Below are positions 1,198 to 37,603 of a stretch of 39,908 bases of DNA, piece by piece. Where the stretch lies: positions 1 through 39,908 of the forward strand of contig CACXDM010000019.1 of NCBI GenBank assembly GCA_902766435.1. Direction: 5' to 3'. Within the stretch, counting starts at the first letter, position 1. Every line of letters begins with the position of its first letter. The position numbers and the translations under genes are program-made. This DNA is from an uncultured Erysipelotrichaceae bacterium. GTDB lineage: Bacteria > Bacillota_I > Bacilli_A > Erysipelotrichales > Erysipelotrichaceae. The notes below the pieces were generated by a model. That model saw nothing but the letters and a program-made list of their open reading frames with translations, searched no databases and was not told where the DNA came from.

Positions 1198-1875
1198 TTA
1201 TGTTTTCCTCTCTTTTTCCGCAGCCAATTCCGCCGGAAACAGATACAGCCATCCGATCAGCAGAAGCAGAACAAGGATCGCAAGGATCCACCAGACACAC
1301 CCCATAAACGGCAGTTCATCCGTAAAACCGAACGCGCCGGCAGGACTGCCCCAGTTGAGGAAAAAGTAAGGATAATGAATACCCTCCAGGAATTCCCATC
1401 CCGCCAGATACCCGATACCGGCATAAACGGCATAGGCAACCGGCGGAAGCGTCACAAGAGGAATGTTTTTGCGGCTGACATGTTCTGCCGCTCTAATCAC
1501 AAAGAAATCCGTTACAGCTGCTGCGGGAACGATCACATGCGTCAGGATGTTCTGCAGATTCCATGCGTGATTTACGAGTGTCGGCGCAAGAACAAAACAG
1601 AATACAAGTCCGGTAAGGGTAATCGAAACGGTACCGACGTATGTTACGGTATACAGCGCTTCACTGATCTCTCTGTTCTTACAAAGGTGAAACAAACCGA
1701 CGGCAGAAATCAGAGCGATGGCAATATTCGACTGAATCGTGAAAAACATAAATACCCTGCTTCCTCCCATGAAGGAATCCTTCCCGGACACATAGCTCAG
1801 CCATACGCCGCTCAAAGCGCAGATAATGACGATCATCTTCAGAAGACAGGATATGTTTTTTCTTCTCAGCTTCAT
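1198..1875 (-). CDS. Pr6Pr family membrane protein
   Basis: This is a polytopic membrane protein of 225 residues with about six hydrophobic segments. Landmarks are FFTIQSN near residue 45, NILTHVIVP near 110 followed by a D-F pair, and YPYFFLN near 170; this spacing is typical of the Pr6Pr (FAR-17a/AIG1-like) family, whose bacterial members have no settled role. The ATG at 1875 overlaps the stop of the upstream DUF429 gene as TGATG, which indicates translational coupling. A GTG one codon earlier (1878) is possible but less likely. It is the last gene of a CinA-DUF429-Pr6Pr run and ends at a shared terminator. Confidence 0.7.
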   Translation of the reverse strand: MKLRRKNISCLLKMIVIICALSGVWLSYVSGKDSFMGGSRVFMFFTIQSNIAIALISAVGLFHLCKNREISEALYTVTYVGTVSITLTGLVFCFVLAPTLVNHAWNLQNILTHVIVPAAAVTDFFVIRAAEHVSRKNIPLVTLPPVAYAVYAGIGYLAGWEFLEGIHYPYFFLNWGSPAGAFGFTDELPFMGCVWWILAILVLLLLIGWLYLFPAELAAEKERKT

Positions 1876-2651
1876 CACACTTTTTTCCCTTCCCTGCGCT
1901 TAACAGGCACGGTCAGCTTCATATACAGTCCCCTTTCATCTTTCTGCGGCTTAACGGGGATCACTTCACTCCTGCCTGCGCTGTGAAACATCGCTGCCAC
2001 GGCAAGACAGACCGCATCAACCGCATCATCCGGACTGCATTTCAGTTCTGATGCCTTCATTCTGATATCATTCAGTGAATCTGCCGGCAGATACGCTTCA
2101 AGAATACTGATCCTTTCCCGCAGTCCCTCTTCTTCTTTTTTCCGGCTCATGACAACCGCTCCGTTCAGTCTGGCAAAACAGAGTTCGGGATGACTTTCCA
2201 GCAGTCTGTTCTTATACTGCGGACATTCCTCCAGCAGTTCATCAAGTTCTCTGATTTTCGGGATAATATTCAGTGTCTGAGCAGAAAGGCTTTTTCCCAG
2301 AATACGGATATTCTCCTGCCGCATTGTTTCATGATCAGGGGCATATACCGCCTGACGGCACGGCGCGCTAAAAACCGTGGAAGCGCGGTAACCGAGTTCT
2401 TTTCTTGCCATGTCATCCGGCCGCATTTCCTGCCTTCTGCTTCTCAGACCGATGACCATATCGATCAGAAACGCATCAAAATCAGGATACGTATTCAGCA
2501 CTTCGCGGATGGTCTTACACCGTTTCAGAGATAACTGTCCGTTCTGCAGTATGGCGGCAGTCCATCCGCCGCGGCAGCCGTCAGCACCGATATACAGACC
2601 TTTTTGAATATTGCCCGCCGTTGTCTTATTCTGCCGTATCTTCCCTGTCAT
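1875..2651 (-). CDS. DUF429 family protein (RNase H-like fold)
   Basis: The protein has 258 residues from the ATG at 2651. It shows the DUF429 signatures: GADGCRGGW near residues 22-30 with the family Asp, ESHPEL at about 152-157, and DDAVDAVCLAV at about 208-218. DUF429 proteins are predicted to have an RNase H-like fold, but no reaction is established. Longer starts are open to 2696, but GGAGATGA about 12 bases upstream supports 2651. The start lies inside the end of the CinA-like gene (26-base overlap) and the stop overlaps the Pr6Pr start, so the three genes form one operon. Confidence 0.75.
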   Translation of the reverse strand: MTGKIRQNKTTAGNIQKGLYIGADGCRGGWTAAILQNGQLSLKRCKTIREVLNTYPDFDAFLIDMVIGLRSRRQEMRPDDMARKELGYRASTVFSAPCRQAVYAPDHETMRQENIRILGKSLSAQTLNIIPKIRELDELLEECPQYKNRLLESHPELCFARLNGAVVMSRKKEEEGLRERISILEAYLPADSLNDIRMKASELKCSPDDAVDAVCLAVAAMFHSAGRSEVIPVKPQKDERGLYMKLTVPVKRREGKKV

Positions 2652-3429
2652 AACGTATATATTCATCTCCCAGAATCGAACGGATTTCTCTGACAACCGG
2701 CGCGATCATTTCCAGGGCTTCGCTGCGGTCTGCGGCAGAGGCCGTTACCCGGATCAGACATCCGTCATCCTTTGCGTATGTCGCAACAGTGGGATTCTCG
2801 GAATCCAGAAGATCTCCCAAAGCGTCTGCCACGGGAGCTTCACCGACTTTCAGAACCGGAGCGTGTTCGAAATCCAGCATTTTGATATTCCATGATACAA
2901 GAACACGGTCACTTAATGATGAAAGATAATCAGCCACATATTCCTCAAACATCGGCTCCATTTCTTTCGGCGGACCGGGCAGCAGAATACAGATCCTGTT
3001 ATTGTTTTCCATGATGATGCCGGGCGCTGTGCCGTGATGATTATAGAGAATCCTTGAATTCTCCGGAACCAGTGCCTGTTTCTTCAGACTCTGCAGCAAA
3101 GATTCTTTCTGTACCCTTTTCAGTGACTTTTCCATCATGGAAAGCGCCGTTTCATCATAGACGAGCTTCTTTCCGAAATATGCCGCAAGCATCTCCTTGG
3201 TGATGTCATCTTTTGTCGGCCCGAGTCCCCCTGTCATGATGACCATCGTTCCTCTTGTATAGGCTGTTTTTACCGCCTGCATGATCCTTTCAGGATTATC
3301 ACCGACGACTGTCTGAAAATGCACTTCGATCCCTGCCTCCGCAAGTTTTACCGAAAGATAGCGGGCATTTGTATTCAGTATATTGCCCAGCAGAATCTCC
3401 GTACCCACACTGATTATTTCCGCAATCAT
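2626..3429 (-). CDS. CinA-like molybdopterin-binding domain protein, without the C-terminal deamidase domain
   Basis: The 267-residue protein matches the N-terminal half of CinA (competence/damage-inducible protein A). It has VGTEILLGNILNTN at about 8-21, TGGLGPTKDD at 66-75 and LLPGPPKEM at 149-157, all hallmarks of the MoCF-biosynthesis fold that in CinA carries pyrophosphatase activity on ADP-ribose or NAD-derived compounds. Full CinA runs to about 400 residues with a C-terminal PncC-type nicotinamide-nucleotide deamidase. This protein stops at DEYIRYDREDTAE, just where that domain would begin. Nothing in the following frames, which are occupied by DUF429, resembles the missing domain, so this is a short form and not an obvious frameshift. 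The ribosome site AAGGAGA is good. It is the first gene of its operon. Confidence 0.85.
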   Translation of the reverse strand: MIAEIISVGTEILLGNILNTNARYLSVKLAEAGIEVHFQTVVGDNPERIMQAVKTAYTRGTMVIMTGGLGPTKDDITKEMLAAYFGKKLVYDETALSMMEKSLKRVQKESLLQSLKKQALVPENSRILYNHHGTAPGIIMENNNRICILLPGPPKEMEPMFEEYVADYLSSLSDRVLVSWNIKMLDFEHAPVLKVGEAPVADALGDLLDSENPTVATYAKDDGCLIRVTASAADRSEALEMIAPVVREIRSILGDEYIRYDREDTAE

Positions 3430-3503
3430 GATTTATTGTCTCCTTCTGCTTTTATTATTGCCGATTTCCTGCTGCTTCTCCAGCAGACCGCTCCCGATTA
3501 TCA

Positions 3504-3531
3504 TTGACGATGATTATTCAGAGCGTATAAT
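3504..3531 (+). promoter_or_regulatory. Sigma-A-type promoter of queT
   Basis: A -35 TTGACG (3504-3509), a 16-base spacer and a perfect -10 TATAAT (3526-3531) give a start near 3538. This leaves a leader of about 70 bases that contains the preQ1 aptamer. Confidence 0.8.
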
Positions 3532-3557
3532 AGTTAATCGTGGTCTGAGAGGACTTC

Positions 3558-3597
3558 CGTCGGTAGCAGCTACCCGACGTATACCCAAAATAAGGAG
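3558..3597 (+). promoter_or_regulatory. preQ1-I riboswitch
   Basis: Stem CGTCGG (3558-3563) and CCGACG (3574-3579) enclose the loop TAGCAGCTAC, followed by an A-rich tail that ends in the ribosome site AAGGAG (3592-3597). The layout closely follows the Thermoanaerobacter tengcongensis preQ1-I aptamer, which has a five-base stem, a UCGCAGUAAC loop and a tail with AAAACAAGG. Because the ribosome site is part of the tail that folds into the pseudoknot, ligand binding should block translation. The gene behind it is queT, the expected target. Confidence 0.85.
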
Positions 3598-3606
3598 AAA
3601 AAATAT

Positions 3607-4119
3607 ATGGAAATGAAACGTTTTTCCCGGATTGCCATGATTGCGGCAATCTACACGGCAATTTGTTTTGTGCCTGCTTTGTCCATGATCGCCTTCGGTT
3701 CGGTACAGGTCAGAATCGCTGAAGCGCTGACAATGCTTCCGCTGATCTACAAGCCTTCAATCATCGGCGTCACACTCGGATGCTTCATCACGAATCTGCT
3801 TGGCGCAGTTACGGGTGTCAATCCCACGGGCATGCTTGACTCCGTTCTCGGGACATCCGCGACACTGATGGCAGCGTACTTCACATGGAAATTCCGTGAC
3901 AGAAAGATCAAGGGTATTCCTGTTCTGTCAATGCTGATGCCGGTCGTATTCAATTTCGTGATCGTCGGAGCCGAACTCGCTTATCTCTTCATGCCGGACA
4001 ACTTCTTTGCCGGTCTGCTGATCAACGGCGCTTCGGTTGCTCTAGGCGAAATCATTGACGTGATCTTCGGCTATGCTCTGGTCATGCAGCTGGATAAGAC
4101 AAACATATTCAAGGAATAA
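3607..4119 (+). CDS. queT: QueT family queuosine-precursor transporter
   Basis: The 170-residue membrane protein has about five transmembrane segments and the QueT (COG4708) pattern: an N-terminal IAAIYTAICF helix, VQVRIAEALTMLP at about 38-50, a helix with LGCFITNLLGA and a conserved NPTGMLDSVLGT. QueT proteins are thought to import preQ1 or a related queuosine precursor for tRNA modification. The preQ1-I riboswitch directly upstream gives independent support. The start is fixed by AAGGAG nine bases upstream, within the aptamer tail. The gene is monocistronic and ends at a strong terminator. No queuosine biosynthesis genes are nearby, which fits a salvage lifestyle. Confidence 0.93.
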   Translation: MEMKRFSRIAMIAAIYTAICFVPALSMIAFGSVQVRIAEALTMLPLIYKPSIIGVTLGCFITNLLGAVTGVNPTGMLDSVLGTSATLMAAYFTWKFRDRKIKGIPVLSMLMPVVFNFVIVGAELAYLFMPDNFFAGLLINGASVALGEIIDVIFGYALVMQLDKTNIFKE

Positions 4120-4130
4120 ATGAATCAATG

Positions 4131-4163
4131 AAATGATCCGATAGTTATCCGGGTCATTTTTTT
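4131..4163 (+). terminator. Rho-independent terminator after queT
   Basis: AAATGATCC (4131-4139) pairs with GGGTCATTT (4151-4159, one G-U), with a GATA/TATC extension inside, followed by a run of seven T. Confidence 0.85.
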
Positions 4164-4198
4164 ATATCATGAAGATAAGCATAAAAGCAGGAGGTTAT

Positions 4199-5584
4199 AT
4201 GATCGTTAAGGCAGTGATGGTCCCCCATCCGCCGATTGCCCTTCATGAAGTCGGCCGGGGAGAAGAATCTAAAATACAGAATACACTCGATGCATTTCAT
4301 AAAGCAGCCAAAGAGATTGCCGAAACAAAACCGGAAACAGTGATTGTTCTTTCACCCCATGCGGTGATGTACCGGGACTGGTTTCAGATTTCTTCCGGAA
4401 ATAACGCTTACGGAAACATGTCGCGCTTCGGCGCCCGCAGTGTTTCATTTCAGAAGGAATACGATACGGAACTTACTTCTCTTCTGGATCAGATGTTGGA
4501 GAAAGACGGTATACCGGGCGGAACAGACTATGACCGCATGCCCGGGCTGGACCACGGAACGATGGTTCCTCTCTATTTTCTGGATCAGGAATATACGGAT
4601 TACCGTCTTATCAGAATCGGTCTCAGCGGAATGCCTTTGACCATGCATTACCGGCTCGGAATGAAAATTGCCGAAGCAGCGCAGGAGCTGAACAGAAAGA
4701 TTGCCGTAATCGGCAGCGGTGATCTTTCCCACTGTCAGAAAGAGGACGGTCCCTACGGATTTGATCCGGCCGGTCCGGAATATGACGAAAGAATCATGAA
4801 GACCATGGGAAGCGCAGACTTCGGTGAACTGTTTGCCTATCCGCCTTCTTTTCTGGAAAAAGCGCAGGAATGCGGTCACCGTTCCTTTGTCATCATGGCC
4901 GGTATTCTTGACGGTCTTTCCGTTACACCTCATGTTTATTCTCACGAAGCCACGTTCGGCGTCGGATACGGGATCGTCACATATGATATCGGCGCTCCTG
5001 ATGAAAACAGACATTTCCTTTCCGTCTATGAGAAAGAGGAAAAGGATCGGATCCGCAAAGAAGCGGAAAACAGTGACATATATGCTTCTCTTGCCCGCAA
5101 AGCAGTATTGTACGCAGTCAGACATCACCGTGTTCTCCCTCTTCCCGGAAACCTTCCTTCTGTCCTGAAGGAAAAGAAAGCCGGTGTGTTTGTCTCCCTG
5201 CATATTCAGGGAGAACTGCGGGGATGCATCGGTACGATATCACCGGTCACTGCATGTGTCGGTGAGGAAATCTGCCGGAATGCCCTTTCCGCCGCTTTAA
5301 AAGATCCGCGTTTTCCGCCTGTAAGTGAAAGTGAACTGGAATGGCTTGAAATCAGCACCGATGTACTCGGTGAACCGGAAGTGATTCCGGATTCATCCAT
5401 GCTGGATGTTAAACGTTATGGTGTAATCTGCCGCTGCAATGAGAGAACCGGACTGCTTCTGCCTGATCTTGAGGGAGTCGATACGGTTGAGGAACAGATC
5501 AGCATCACCTGCCGCAAAGGCGGAATCGATCCTGATGATGAAGATCTGATACTCGAACGCTTTGAGGTGGTGCGTCATGTCTGA
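4199..5584 (+). CDS. AmmeMemoRadiSam system protein A (LigB-like dioxygenase domain fused to AMMECR1)
   Basis: This is a two-domain protein of 461 residues. The N-terminal part, about 1-275, resembles LigB/class III extradiol dioxygenases, with potential metal-site histidines in PHPP (9-12), SPH (52-54), LDHG (118-121) and GDLSH (174-178). The C-terminal part, about 295-461, is an AMMECR1 domain with the diagnostic LRGCIG (340-345). The start at 4199 follows GCAGGAGGT; an ATG ten codons earlier has no ribosome site. The stop overlaps the start of the radical SAM gene by 8 bases. Genes for AMMECR1, Memo-like and radical SAM proteins recur together across bacteria and archaea, and I know of no established reaction for the set. 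Confidence 0.9.
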   Translation: MIVKAVMVPHPPIALHEVGRGEESKIQNTLDAFHKAAKEIAETKPETVIVLSPHAVMYRDWFQISSGNNAYGNMSRFGARSVSFQKEYDTELTSLLDQMLEKDGIPGGTDYDRMPGLDHGTMVPLYFLDQEYTDYRLIRIGLSGMPLTMHYRLGMKIAEAAQELNRKIAVIGSGDLSHCQKEDGPYGFDPAGPEYDERIMKTMGSADFGELFAYPPSFLEKAQECGHRSFVIMAGILDGLSVTPHVYSHEATFGVGYGIVTYDIGAPDENRHFLSVYEKEEKDRIRKEAENSDIYASLARKAVLYAVRHHRVLPLPGNLPSVLKEKKAGVFVSLHIQGELRGCIGTISPVTACVGEEICRNALSAALKDPRFPPVSESELEWLEISTDVLGEPEVIPDSSMLDVKRYGVICRCNERTGLLLPDLEGVDTVEEQISITCRKGGIDPDDEDLILERFEVVRHV

Positions 5585-6395
5585 GATCATCTGTGATGTA
5601 TGTCCCCACCACTGTCATATCCCGGAAGGAAAAACAGGACTCTGCCGGGCGAGAATGAACCGTAACGGGACTAACTTCCCGGCAAACTTCGGAAGAATCA
5701 CATCGATTGCCGTAGATCCGATCGAGAAGAAACCGCTTTACGGTTTTTATCCCGGATCTTCAATTCTTTCCGTTGGAAGCTATGGATGCAATCTCGGCTG
5801 CCCGTTCTGTCAGAATCATTCCATTTCGATGGCAGATGAACATACCGTAAGATACGCCGAAATCAGTCCTCACGAACTCGCATCCATCTCTCTTGAACAT
5901 ACGGAAAGCATCGGCATTGCCTTCACCTACAATGAACCGATGATCTCCTATGAATACATTATTGAGACCGCCCGCCTGCTGGAAGGTTCCGGTCAGAAGA
6001 TCGTTCTTGTGACCAACGGATGTGTCAGTCCTCACATTACGGAGAAGCTGCTTCCTTATACAGACGCGATGAACATCGACCTGAAGGGAGACCGGGAATT
6101 CTACCGGGAACTGAAGGGTGATTATGATACTGTCAGGGAAACGATCAGAACCGTATACAACAGATGTCATCTGGAAGTAACGATCCTGCTGATCCCCGGA
6201 AAAAACGACAGTGAAGAATTCGTCCGCAGGGAAGCTTCGTGGCTGGCTTCACTGGATCCGGAAATCATCCTCCATCTGACACGGTACTTTCCCCGCTACC
6301 ATTACTCCCTGCCGCCCACAGACCCGGAGAAAATGAAGATACTGAAGCAGACCGCAAAGGAATATCTGCGGCATGTATATCTTGGCAACGTATAA
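5577..6395 (+). CDS. AmmeMemoRadiSam system radical SAM enzyme
   Basis: The protein has 272 residues from the ATG at 5577, which overlaps the preceding stop and follows GAGGTGG. The radical SAM cluster motif CNLGCPFC gives Cys 71, 75 and 78. An extra cysteine set at the N-terminus (CDVCPHHC, Cys 6, 9 and 13, plus Cys 23) is typical of this PflA-related subfamily. The later segments AFTYNEPMISYEY and VTNGCV match SAM-binding regions of activase-like enzymes. It should form a 4Fe-4S cluster and cleave SAM to a 5'-deoxyadenosyl radical. The substrate is unknown; the fused LigB-AMMECR1 protein is the obvious partner. The gene ends at a bidirectional terminator. Confidence 0.92.
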   Translation: MSEIICDVCPHHCHIPEGKTGLCRARMNRNGTNFPANFGRITSIAVDPIEKKPLYGFYPGSSILSVGSYGCNLGCPFCQNHSISMADEHTVRYAEISPHELASISLEHTESIGIAFTYNEPMISYEYIIETARLLEGSGQKIVLVTNGCVSPHITEKLLPYTDAMNIDLKGDREFYRELKGDYDTVRETIRTVYNRCHLEVTILLIPGKNDSEEFVRREASWLASLDPEIILHLTRYFPRYHYSLPPTDPEKMKILKQTAKEYLRHVYLGNV

Positions 6396-6436: not shown

Positions 6437-7576
6437 TCAGTTTCCGCCGATTTCCACTTTACAGCCGGTTTCACACTCCTCCTGTTCAGCTTCCGCCTCA
6501 CCGGAGATGATTTCCGTCCCGATCTTGTCATGGAACCAGGAAGACAGGTTGTCAACATTCTCATAATAGGGAATATCCTCATCCGAATCCGGAGAAAGCA
6601 CTCCCTTGATTTCCCCGTTCTCAAAGATGACAACTGCCGGCGTATACTTCACCTGATCCTTAAGAACAGTATCGGAAAGATCCGCATCCTGCATACTGAA
6701 GGAACAGATATCGATCAGACCTGCTTCCGCATACTCACTGATTACGGGCTGGAATTTCGCGCACGATCCGCATCCCGGCAGTGTAAAGAGTACTGCGAAT
6801 GTATCCCCGGAAGAGATCTTCTCTTTCAGTGTCTCTTTGTCAATCTGCGTCAATACGGAAGAAGACGATTCTTCCGGCTCCTTATCGCCTGAAGACTGTT
6901 CTTCCCCTATGCGGTGAAGGACGGAAAAATCAATGAAGTGATACGGAACACGGTAGAAATCATAATAGGTACTGCCGTTTTCTTCGTGTTTGATCTGAAG
7001 GTTATGCTCCCCTTCATAAAACCAGTAACCGCCGGCATTATAGATCCTGTTTTCATCCCAGCCGAGCTCTGTAAGCATCGCCTTTGTCATTCCGGCATAA
7101 CCGCCTCCGCCGCACATCAGAATGATGTTTTTATCCTTCGGAAACAGATATTCGAGAATCGCCTGAGATTCTTCATAATTGGCGCTATAGCCCTCTTCCG
7201 TATGGGTGAAGAGCGTATCACCGGAATAACCGGACCCGACCTCTGCGGGAAGACCCTCAACATTGCAGAGATAAGGATACGGAACTACTTCAAATCCTTC
7301 CACCAGTCCGGAAAGATAGGAATCACCGCCGATCGCTTCATAGTCCGCTTCATCCTTCAGCATACGCATATCACGGTATACGGTATCCTCTCTTCCGAGA
7401 TACTGATCGATTGTGCTCTCGTTGATGTTCTTGTCAATGCCGAACTGTTCACCGCGGATTCCCGATTCCTTTTCAGGCGCAGGAAGCGGTCCGGCTGCTG
7501 CAGAAGATGCCGGCTGAGCGGAACAGCCCGCAAATATTGTCAATGCGGCAAGTACCGCCGTTACTCTCTTTTTCAT
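6437..7576 (-). CDS. Lipoprotein with rhodanese-like and thioredoxin-like domains
   Basis: The protein has 379 residues. The signal peptide ends in a lipobox (TIFAGC, Cys 18), so it should sit on the outer face of the membrane. Residues about 45-220 resemble a rhodanese domain: LILMCGGGGYAG-like sequence places a Cys at 155 at the start of the active-site loop, followed by MLTELGW and IYNAGGYW. Residues about 245-355 resemble thioredoxin, with CGSC at 269-272 in FTLPGCGSC and a later cis-Pro segment KYTPAVVIFE. The C-terminus has two more cysteines. The arrangement suggests extracellular sulfur or disulfide chemistry, but no substrate is evident. Two adjacent ATGs are present; the second (7576) lies 7 bases from GAGG and is preferred over 7579. 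Confidence 0.8.
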   Translation of the reverse strand: MKKRVTAVLAALTIFAGCSAQPASSAAAGPLPAPEKESGIRGEQFGIDKNINESTIDQYLGREDTVYRDMRMLKDEADYEAIGGDSYLSGLVEGFEVVPYPYLCNVEGLPAEVGSGYSGDTLFTHTEEGYSANYEESQAILEYLFPKDKNIILMCGGGGYAGMTKAMLTELGWDENRIYNAGGYWFYEGEHNLQIKHEENGSTYYDFYRVPYHFIDFSVLHRIGEEQSSGDKEPEESSSSVLTQIDKETLKEKISSGDTFAVLFTLPGCGSCAKFQPVISEYAEAGLIDICSFSMQDADLSDTVLKDQVKYTPAVVIFENGEIKGVLSPDSDEDIPYYENVDNLSSWFHDKIGTEIISGEAEAEQEECETGCKVEIGGN

Positions 7577-7611
7577 CATGAAACCTCACATCCTTCCGGA
7601 TACAAAGCAAT

Positions 7612-7617
7612 ATTATA
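7612..7617 (-). promoter_or_regulatory. -10 element of the lipoprotein gene
   Basis: A perfect TATAAT on the minus strand lies about 36 bases before the ATG. No convincing -35 is visible. Confidence 0.5.
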
Positions 7618-7641
7618 CCTGTAATCTTCATCAGAAAAAGA

Positions 7642-7667
7642 AAAAATACGGATCTCTCCGTATTTTT
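7642..7667 (-). terminator. Terminator of the ABC transporter operon
   Basis: AAAAATACGGA pairs perfectly with TCCGTATTTTT around a four-base loop, just downstream of the permease gene. Confidence 0.85.
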
Positions 7668-7679
7668 CATACCTTTTCA

Positions 7680-23152: not shown

Positions 23153-24193
23153 TTAATAACCGTAGCTCAGAACTTCCCAGCTGCCGCCTTCACTGCGGGC
23201 AAGATACCATTCATAATCGGTATATTCATGGTCGGGCTCAAAAGCTCCGGAGTTTTCAGCAGGTGTATGGAAATCACTGAGGAACTTGATACATTCCGTA
23301 TATTCCTGATCCTCTCTGAGTTCATTCATCCATTTGATGTTTTCCTCACTGTTGCAGTCATCGGAAGTATAACGGATATTGTGCAGCTCGCATCCGGCAA
23401 AATCCGCGAACACCTTTCTGATCTGCGTGATTGCTTCATCCATATCATCCTTTGTATAGATCTCGGAAGTTCCGTAATCGATTTCCACATCAACCGAACT
23501 GGCCTCACCGAGATATTCCTCAAGAGTGATTCCCTGTTCCATGATCTCTCTTGCGGAAGCCTGACCGACATACCTGATATGCCATGGCTCATAATTGAAT
23601 CCCGTGATGTCTTCCTTCCCCTCAAGATAATGGAGAATAAAACCGTGTTCGGCGAGTCTTGCGTGGACTTTTGCCCAAAGATCAGAATACTCCAGCATTT
23701 CCTCATTCTCGTAAACTGCTTCTCCGTCAACAATCAGATACAGATCCAGAGCGAGTCCGGTATGATGTTCCGAATATCCCGGCGCTGCCACATTCAGACG
23801 CACATATTCCTCACCATAGCGTTCCGTATAGTCATCTGCGACTGCCTGCTGTTCCTCAACACTGCGGTATCCCGAATAAATATCAACATTGACATGATTC
23901 TGCGCAAGGTCATCTTTGAGCTCCGCGAAGGCATCAGCGGTTTTCTTTTCCAGGCTTATCTCATCGCCCATTGAATTCTTCAATGTCACAAATTCAGCCT
24001 GATCCGCCCAGTCAGCAGGAACTTCCTTCTGCCTGTTCACAAGAACAAGATAATCGATTTCATTTTCATCCGGATTCGGTATCTCTTCTGAAACCGGCGG
24101 AACAGACGAAGACGGAACTGTATTCTGTGTGCATCCGGTCACCGATAAAACAGCGCTCATCATAAGCATTGATATCAAGTATTTACTCTTCAT
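23153..24193 (-). CDS. VanY-like D-Ala-D-Ala carboxypeptidase lipoprotein (copy 1)
   Basis: The protein has 346 residues. The lipobox SVTGC gives a lipidated Cys 21. The M15 peptidase domain (about 85-230) has YSGYRSVEEQQ (106-116), the zinc motif SEHHTGLALD (141-150, ligands His 143 and Asp 150) and EPWH (202-205, catalytic Glu 202 and ligand His 205). It should remove the terminal D-Ala from peptidoglycan stem peptides at the outer membrane face. A C-terminal domain of about 110 residues (from TSEIYTKDDMDEA to the final SYGY) is shared with the copy at 36566-37603. The ATG lies inside the end of the surface-protein gene (11-base overlap), so the two are coupled. No vanHA ligase genes accompany it. 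Confidence 0.92.
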   Translation of the reverse strand: MKSKYLISMLMMSAVLSVTGCTQNTVPSSSVPPVSEEIPNPDENEIDYLVLVNRQKEVPADWADQAEFVTLKNSMGDEISLEKKTADAFAELKDDLAQNHVNVDIYSGYRSVEEQQAVADDYTERYGEEYVRLNVAAPGYSEHHTGLALDLYLIVDGEAVYENEEMLEYSDLWAKVHARLAEHGFILHYLEGKEDITGFNYEPWHIRYVGQASAREIMEQGITLEEYLGEASSVDVEIDYGTSEIYTKDDMDEAITQIRKVFADFAGCELHNIRYTSDDCNSEENIKWMNELREDQEYTECIKFLSDFHTPAENSGAFEPDHEYTDYEWYLARSEGGSWEVLSYGY

Positions 24194-36565: not shown

Positions 36566-37603
36566 TCAATATCCCCAGCTGACAATTTCCCAGCTGCCTT
36601 CCTGATCACAGCCGAGCCACCACTGGTAGTTCTTGTATTCCATATCCGATTCAAAGGCATTTTCACTCACCTTGGGAGAATGAAAATCCATCAGAAATTC
36701 AGCCACTTTTACATACTCCGCAGTTTCACTCATTGAATTGATCCACTTCAGGTTTTCTTCAGATACTGCTTCATCCCCGGCATAGCGGATACTGTGGAGT
36801 TCACAATCCTTCCATGCGGCGAACTGACATTTGATCAAAACTGCCATCTCCTTCAGTTCCTCTTCGCTGTAAACTGCCGATTTACCCAAATCCACTGTCA
36901 CATCGGTTTCATTTACTGCGCCGAGATATCCTTCAAGAGTAACGCCTGTATCCATGATTTCCTTTGCTTTTTCCTTATCCTGAATATAACGGATATGCCA
37001 CGGTTCATATGCATAGCCGGTAATCTGTTCCTTACCTTCAAGATAGCGGAGAATAAAACCATGCGCCGCCAGTTTATCATGAATCTTTGCCCAGATTTCC
37101 GGATACTGAACCAGATCTTCATTCTCAATGATATCCTTCCCGTCAACATTCAGATAGAGATCCAGCGCAAGACCGGTATGGTGTTCGGAATAACCGGGTA
37201 CCGCAACGACTTTTGCGGCATAGTCAGCCCCGTATTTTTCCGTAAACCTGTCCATGATCTCCTGCTGTGCCTCAACCGTTCTTCTTGCGGAATCCAAGTC
37301 AACATGAATGCCTTCGGCTTCGAGTTCTTCCTTTAAAGCCAGATATTCTTTGTACGCATTCACTTCCACTTCAACATCATCACCGAGTGAATTAGTGCAG
37401 TGTTCAACTTTCAGATTGGCCTCCCAGTCCTCCGGCAGCGGATTCAGCTTGTTGACGAGAACCATGTAGTTGATATCGTAACTTTCCGCCTCAGATGACT
37501 GCTGTCCGGCTGAAGAAGATACCGCAGCACCATTGCTGCAGCCGGCCATGAGACCGCCCATCATAAGCAGTGCAGCACAGACATATATCATGTTATGTTT
37601 CAT
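36566..37603 (-). CDS. VanY-like D-Ala-D-Ala carboxypeptidase lipoprotein (copy 2)
   Basis: The 345-residue paralogue of the protein at 23153-24193 has the same order of parts. The lipobox LMAGC has Cys 22. The M15 domain has SEHHTGLALD (139-148, ligands His 141 and Asp 148) and EPWH (200-203). The C-terminal domain ends in VSWGY. The arginine region reads DSARRTVEAQQ against YSGYRSVEEQQ in copy 1, so specificity may differ. TTGGAGGTGAAAA precedes the ATG. It is transcribed alone, with its own terminator. Confidence 0.92.
   Translation of the reverse strand: MKHNMIYVCAALLMMGGLMAGCSNGAAVSSSAGQQSSEAESYDINYMVLVNKLNPLPEDWEANLKVEHCTNSLGDDVEVEVNAYKEYLALKEELEAEGIHVDLDSARRTVEAQQEIMDRFTEKYGADYAAKVVAVPGYSEHHTGLALDLYLNVDGKDIIENEDLVQYPEIWAKIHDKLAAHGFILRYLEGKEQITGYAYEPWHIRYIQDKEKAKEIMDTGVTLEGYLGAVNETDVTVDLGKSAVYSEEELKEMAVLIKCQFAAWKDCELHSIRYAGDEAVSEENLKWINSMSETAEYVKVAEFLMDFHSPKVSENAFESDMEYKNYQWWLGCDQEGSWEIVSWGY

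Follow-up and report, generated by a model that had tools for sequence, protein, structure and literature searches.

A surface-anchored pair of rhodanese-like and thioredoxin-like modules, fused or encoded side by side in gut Bacilli, as a candidate sulfane-sulfur handling unit

Rhodaneses carry sulfur as a persulfide on a loop cysteine. Among described proteins, single-domain rhodaneses and the CoADR-RHD and persulfide dioxygenase-rhodanese proteins resemble the protein presented here in their fold and in a cysteine placed at the strand-helix loop. According to an excerpt of PMC8533005, the rhodaneses RDL2, DUF442 and TST need an Arg or Thr at the end of this loop to open thiosulfate. Moreover, 3-mercaptopyruvate sulfurtransferase (MST) is likewise a rhodanese-fold enzyme with a redoxin partner: excerpts of PMC7995614 describe that its persulfide is passed to thioredoxin, where both cysteines are needed, and that one Cys is enough when glutaredoxin is the acceptor and glutathione is present. 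At the surface of a Gram-positive bacterium, the pneumococcal Etrx1 and Etrx2, which occur with CcdA and MsrAB2, are likewise lipid-anchored proteins of thioredoxin fold (excerpt of PMC3914529).

The window analysed here comprises 39,908 nucleotides from an uncultured Erysipelotrichaceae bacterium (contig CACXDM010000019.1 of assembly GCA_902766435.1), and its minus strand encodes a fused rhodanese-thioredoxin lipoprotein at 6437..7579, with 380 residues from the first ATG. The first-pass annotation counted from a second ATG at 7576, and its residue numbers are one lower for that reason; its Cys155 and CGSC 269-272 are C156 and C270-C273 in the 380-residue numbering used here. The signal peptide and the lipobox LTIFAGC, found by pattern match, occupy 7523..7579 on the minus strand, with Cys19 as the lipid-anchored residue, and the reading of the protein as a lipoprotein with a surface anchor is supported by this FAGC. 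The lipobox pattern is matched by 28 of 29 fused rows, and in the exception, L018, the start seems to have been called too late.

A terminator scan places a terminator-like hairpin at 7641..7668 (minus strand), 3' of the upstream ABC permease gene. Since this hairpin lies between the permease gene and the fused gene, the latter is probably transcribed alone, as its own transcription unit. A possible -10 box, TATAAT, was found by eye at 7612..7617 on the minus strand, 33 bases upstream of the first ATG; it is absent from the scan output, and no -35 box was found upstream of the fused gene. As judged from the genes that were read and from a scan of four flanking genes, no DsbD or CcdA gene is adjacent, which agrees with the first-pass annotation. 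ApbE and FMN_bind neighbours are absent from the same four flanking genes and do not recur across the 51 related loci described below, and the fused loci have no recurring redox neighbours within 8 kb. Elsewhere in the window, 4169-6395 contains a MEMO-AMMECR1 type protein, recognised by eye, that overlaps a radical SAM gene whose radical SAM part was Pfam-scanned; we take the two to be an AmmeMemoRadiSam-like set. Two similar lipoproteins at 23153-24193 and 36566-37603 look like D-Ala-D-Ala carboxypeptidases by eye and are apparently paralogues.

The rhodanese-like half (residues 32-226; 6902..7486, minus strand) is defined by its AlphaFold model and by structural matches to rhodaneses. Because the fold search with the full-length protein was dominated by thioredoxins, this half was folded alone (residues 29-226), with a pLDDT of 95.4 and a pTM of 0.91. 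The full-length model has a mean pLDDT of 86.8 and a pTM of 0.68, at which the relative placement of the two domains is uncertain. Among the VIA rows listed, the best match is 5ve4 (Z 10.2, 113 aligned, 3.1 A), and nearly all are of the rhodanese family, including CoADR-RHD, persulfide dioxygenase-rhodanese and MST structures. Foldseek matches are weak, with none at E <= 0.001 and the best, 6mxv, at 4e-3. The protein has the fold and the loop Cys of the rhodanese superfamily and stays below its Pfam gathering score (PF00581, 13.3 bits, E 0.12, cut-off 22.2). The Pfam and NCBIfam scan of this half gave nothing over cut-off, and none of 19 members has a Pfam match in this half at E <= 0.01. Searches of this half against the PDB with phmmer and hmmsearch returned weak rows, several of them serine carboxypeptidase, which were judged to be chance matches.

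In the model, the active-site-like loop C156-G-G-G-G-Y161 (7097..7114, minus strand) is set between a strand and a helix: C156 is the last residue of the strand (123-128 of the domain model), and the helix begins four residues on. By this prediction, C156 occupies the rhodanese active-site position, and a profile alignment, weak at E 0.069, sets it on the CGGG of 6mxv. The first-pass annotation had proposed a rhodanese loop around this cysteine; a placement of the Cys outside such a loop was looked for in the model and did not appear. All 52 aligned rows keep C156, and a 48-row alignment shows no variation at C156, G157, G160 and Y161. For the loop-end Tyr we rely on these 48 rows, because the other row set was selected by loop pattern. 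The loop ends in this Tyr161, without the Arg, Thr or Ser of thiosulfate sulfurtransferase (TST), and the protein is not filed as a TST because Tyr161 is present in all 48 rows.

The thioredoxin-like half (residues 242-354; 6518..6856, minus strand) matches PF00085 at 26.7 bits against a cut-off of 23.5, and its structural match 3vfi (Z 13.4, 100 aligned, 1.7 A) gives it the thioredoxin fold, so that both folds proposed on first reading are supported by structure prediction. It aligns with the split partner genes described below at an hhalign E of 3.3e-18. Its CxxC is the redox motif CGSC (6761..6772, minus strand), whose C270 and C273 are each kept in 29 of 29 rows of the main fused clade. 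Pro314 of KYTP (6638..6640, minus strand), with its P invariant across 22 split partners, is presumably the expected cis-proline opposite the CxxC, the cis state being taken from family knowledge. The two extra C-terminal cysteines reported earlier, C369 and C373 (CX3C; 6461..6475, minus strand), lie in a poorly modelled tail and are conserved in 28 of 29 and 29 of 29 rows, respectively; L012 has CX4C instead.

A contig search with patterns from both halves gave 51 loci. The protein is fused as in the window in 28 of them, from records named Solobacterium or Erysipelotrichaceae and mostly from ruminant guts, and the N-terminal half is a separate gene in the other 23. In 22 of these 23 the next gene encodes an anchored thioredoxin-like protein; the contig of L044 ends inside the partner, which is partial and contributes no motif data. 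Taken alone, the 51-locus set is biased to linked copies because the search patterns came from both halves. A class-wide survey of 395 genomes, whose search profile covered only the rhodanese half (strong copy, E < 1e-80), is free of this bias, and each of its 20 strong copies, in 18 genomes, is linked to a thioredoxin. Three of them are fused, namely G000, G095 and G219:C2; in the last there is a Big_2 spacer, and the thioredoxin-like end is divergent (hhalign E 2.9e-9). The order is reversed in G195, with the thioredoxin upstream, and the 16 other copies have it downstream. A phylum survey of 392 genomes found no match to the rhodanese half outside the class.

When both sets are pooled, 66 distinct copies are obtained (30 fused and 36 split), and in all 66 the two halves are either fused or next to each other; one copy is truncated by the end of its contig. 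The duplicates L017 and L088-L091 are excluded from the counts. The rhodanese rows L006, L029, L098 and L100 fell outside the loop-pattern filter and had their partners read from the loci directly, as were the partners outside the motif pattern (L028/L091, L044, L048, L093, L101 and L102). The two genes overlap in 25 of 34 measured downstream pairs. The idea that the two domains work together thereby gains support beyond that of the first-pass annotation. Three split pairs (L030, L047 and L048) stand on contigs binned as Saccharibacteria and fall inside the Bacilli tree, by mis-binning or transfer.

In the tree, the main fused clade (29 rows) is a single branch with support 95/95. Two split rows whose partners have CxxC stand next to it, and the fusion of L080 is placed elsewhere. 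As these two fusions lie apart, the tree indicates that the gene fusion arose at least twice. The L080 contig carries in one run (1815-5197) a NifS-like cysteine desulfurase, a ferredoxin-thioredoxin-like protein and the rhodanese-Big_2-thioredoxin-like fusion. The first Cys, the nucleophile, is present in all 35 split partners with sequence; 6 of these have CxxC, 5 have CX5C, and 24 have no nearby second Cys. A second, CPHC-like thioredoxin domain comes after the first in 12 of 22 split partners, and that of the L049 partner matches the outer domain of an NPCAMW membrane protein (hhalign E 3.5e-21), which is described below.

For CcdA-like genes elsewhere in the genome, which the first-pass annotation suggested looking for, the outcome is mixed: DsbD_TM (CcdA) was not found in the source genome (88% complete), and 21 of the 23 other genomes of this genus have it, the one checked being a CcdA-redoxin fusion. 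CcdA was also not found in G022 (97% complete). Of the 13 genomes that hold the main fused form, 10 have DsbD_TM, versus 0 of 16 other holders over cut-off (one sub-threshold), a difference that is confounded by lineage. Within the genus there is no association, because all 12 genomes without the fused protein also have CcdA. CcdA was rejected as an obligatory partner, being over cut-off in none of the 16 split-lineage genomes and yet present in the genus non-holders. Sulf_transp (PF04143), the YeeE/TsuA type of thiosulfate uptake, has no match in the source genome and is over cut-off in 1 of 40 genomes, outside the genus.

Upstream of the split pair, a one-TM regulator of the HTH_3 (XRE) type is found in 8 of 23 loci, on the same strand and 28-91 bases off. 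All eight regulators have four cysteines in the outer domain, and seven have a fifth; in the three scanned, this domain had no Pfam match. From its sequence, this regulator is a possible sensor of outside thiols. These cysteine-rich regulators are the upstream genes of L027, L037, L038, L039, L041, L042, L049 and L050, and others occur in L126 and L127. A role specific to the pair was rejected, since two of the four full-length relatives found in 18 genomes lie elsewhere, whereas one stands next to the pair and one is in the same gene run.

One locus, L128, holds in a single run the regulator, a mini-thioredoxin (CMSC), the NPCAMW membrane protein, the rhodanese, a single-cysteine thioredoxin and a CPHC thioredoxin; its mini-thioredoxin and NPCAMW set is presumed to form a transmembrane thiol relay. 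The NPCAMW protein has about 400 aa, an outer CPHC-like domain and a DGFNPCAMW membrane part without a Pfam match. It resembles CcdA by eye, and hhalign to the CcdA-redoxin protein matched the thioredoxin part only. In 6 further loci (L132-L137) it follows a mini-thioredoxin, and a NifS-like ORF precedes in 5 of the 6; a Pfam check covered two of these NifS ORFs and two of the mini-thioredoxins at the NPCAMW loci. The protein (E < 1e-100) is present in 7 of 18 pair-holding genomes versus 46 of 377 others (Fisher p 0.005), an association that is confounded by family f12, in which 7 of the 10 genomes with the pair carry it, as do at least 19 without the pair. As a dedicated partner it was rejected, and since it is common in f12 with or without the pair, it is likely a general envelope relay. 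The mini-thioredoxin/NPCAMW cassette was not found in the source's genus.

The fused or adjacent halves suggest a two-step unit for sulfur or thiol handling on the cell surface. With confidence about evenly divided, the pair is interpreted as a surface sulfane-sulfur (persulfide or polysulfide) reductase or transferase composed of two obligately linked modules. The rhodanese half would take a sulfur atom from an outside donor onto Cys156. This donor is more likely a persulfide or polysulfide than thiosulfate, which the loop-end Tyr, without Arg or Thr, makes less likely. The thioredoxin half, in the same chain or as the product of the neighbouring gene in relatives, would then attack the C156 persulfide via C270. 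In the two-cysteine forms, C273 would allow the release of sulfide and resolution within the protein, and the CX3C tail may be a further shuttle. The resulting disulfide would be re-reduced by a membrane thiol relay of the CcdA/DsbD type or by outside thiols. In the single-cysteine forms, on the other hand, an outside small thiol would finish the reaction. The presence of both two-cysteine and one-cysteine states in the family matches the MST acceptors and thus favours a sulfane-sulfur reductase or transferase. The extracellular handling of thiols or persulfides proposed on first reading is compatible with these results, and the activity itself is putative.

Among the alternatives, general extracellular thiol/disulfide repair would have the thioredoxin half reduce oxidised surface proteins in the manner of the pneumococcal Etrx proteins and the rhodanese half serve as a client-binding or sulfenate-handling module with no sulfurtransferase activity. 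Pneumococcus has anchored lipoproteins of the thioredoxin kind that occur with CcdA and MsrAB (excerpt of PMC3914529), and a DsbD_TM protein, in one checked case the CcdA-redoxin fusion, occurs in most genomes of the genus. However, C156 and the loop around it do not vary across the 48 aligned rows, the pair is also found where DsbD_TM is absent (0 of 16 genomes over cut-off outside the fused lineage), and many partners have no nearby second Cys, which leaves general repair rather unlikely. A part in flavin-based extracellular electron transfer is improbable even though, by eye, weaker relatives of the rhodanese half have neighbours of ApbE-like, FMN-binding or rnf-like type in 6 of the 7 loci read (a Pfam check covered genes of L072 and L083), and G018 has two of these relatives, with 32 and 43% identity to the window protein; no such neighbour gene occurs among the four flanking genes scanned or the recurring neighbours of the 51 loci, and those relatives form separate branches in which the loop ends in Arg (MCQxGGR), is of another kind or has lost its Cys.

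The loop also bears on an oxyanion reductase or phosphatase of the Cdc25/Acr2 type built on the rhodanese fold. Arg after C-X5 binds oxyanions, and CGGGGYA is without it; the shared fold class, the occurrence of some such enzymes among the VIA rows listed and the pairing of Acr2-like enzymes with a redoxin count in favour of this reading, which is the least probable of all. Sulfur export, in which sulfur from a cytosolic cysteine desulfurase would reach the rhodanese outside by way of the mini-thioredoxin and the NPCAMW protein, draws on the 5 of 7 loci in which an aminotransferase class V or NifS-like ORF lies beside these two genes and on the NifS gene that adjoins the second fusion, L080. 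It is very improbable, as the cassette is joined to the pair at one locus only (L128), occurs in many genomes without the pair and was not found in the genus. A similarly slight chance is given to a full outward relay of sulfane sulfur across the membrane, running from a cytosolic cysteine desulfurase, mini-thioredoxin and NPCAMW-type membrane protein to outer CPHC and single-cysteine thioredoxins and an outer rhodanese that would persulfidate surface or outside targets, all under a membrane regulator whose cysteines would sense outside thiols; the window protein would be its fused, pared-down form.

That the pair has stayed together while its genes fused twice and once changed their order is a strong sign of a joint reaction outside the cells of uncultured gut Bacilli. 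If the pair reduces or moves persulfide sulfur, as in the preferred reading of a surface sulfane-sulfur reductase or transferase, it would give small-genome lineages a way to process, at their surface, reactive sulfur and sulfide of the host or the gut lumen. Its two-cysteine, one-cysteine, tail-bearing and second-domain forms would also be a natural series for testing how thioredoxins resolve persulfides.

Each domain is already known in kind. No description was found of the fixed surface pair, of its Tyr-ended loop, of the single-cysteine partners or of the membrane regulator: no such protein or pair appears among the matches listed from a literature that covers only a minority of subscription journals and preprints. 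In PMC8238504, the main text does not contain 'sulfurtransferase', and 'rhodanese' is absent among the matches listed. By sequence, the rhodanese-like lipoproteins in ApbE/FMN_bind/Rnf-like loci of related Bacilli belong to the same extended rhodanese subfamily. In contrast to the window protein, they have no thioredoxin partner in the loci read, and their loop is MCQxGGR or has lost the Cys. L072, L073, L074 and L083 each hold a pair of these lipoproteins, one of active type (MCQxGGR) and one without Cys (STAGVE-like). In these four loci, and also in L075, L076 and L077, rhodanese-like lipoproteins occur with ApbE-like and FMN-binding or CTC-motif lipoproteins; rnf-like genes are further present in L083 and L077, and L083 has NusG_II and Hpre_diP_synt_I (EetA/EetB-like).

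Similar to the Etrx/CcdA system, the window protein has a lipobox, whereas a CcdA gene was found neither adjacent nor in its own genome (88% complete). Etrx1 and Etrx2 are without a rhodanese half, which the window protein has. Compared with single-domain rhodaneses and CoADR-RHD, the rhodanese half of the window protein is longer (~195 versus ~100 residues), ends its loop in Tyr, scores below the Pfam cut-off, is secreted and is fused to a thioredoxin. Finally, MST and its redoxin are separate intracellular proteins, whereas the type found in the window is anchored at the surface and has its two modules fused or encoded by adjacent genes.
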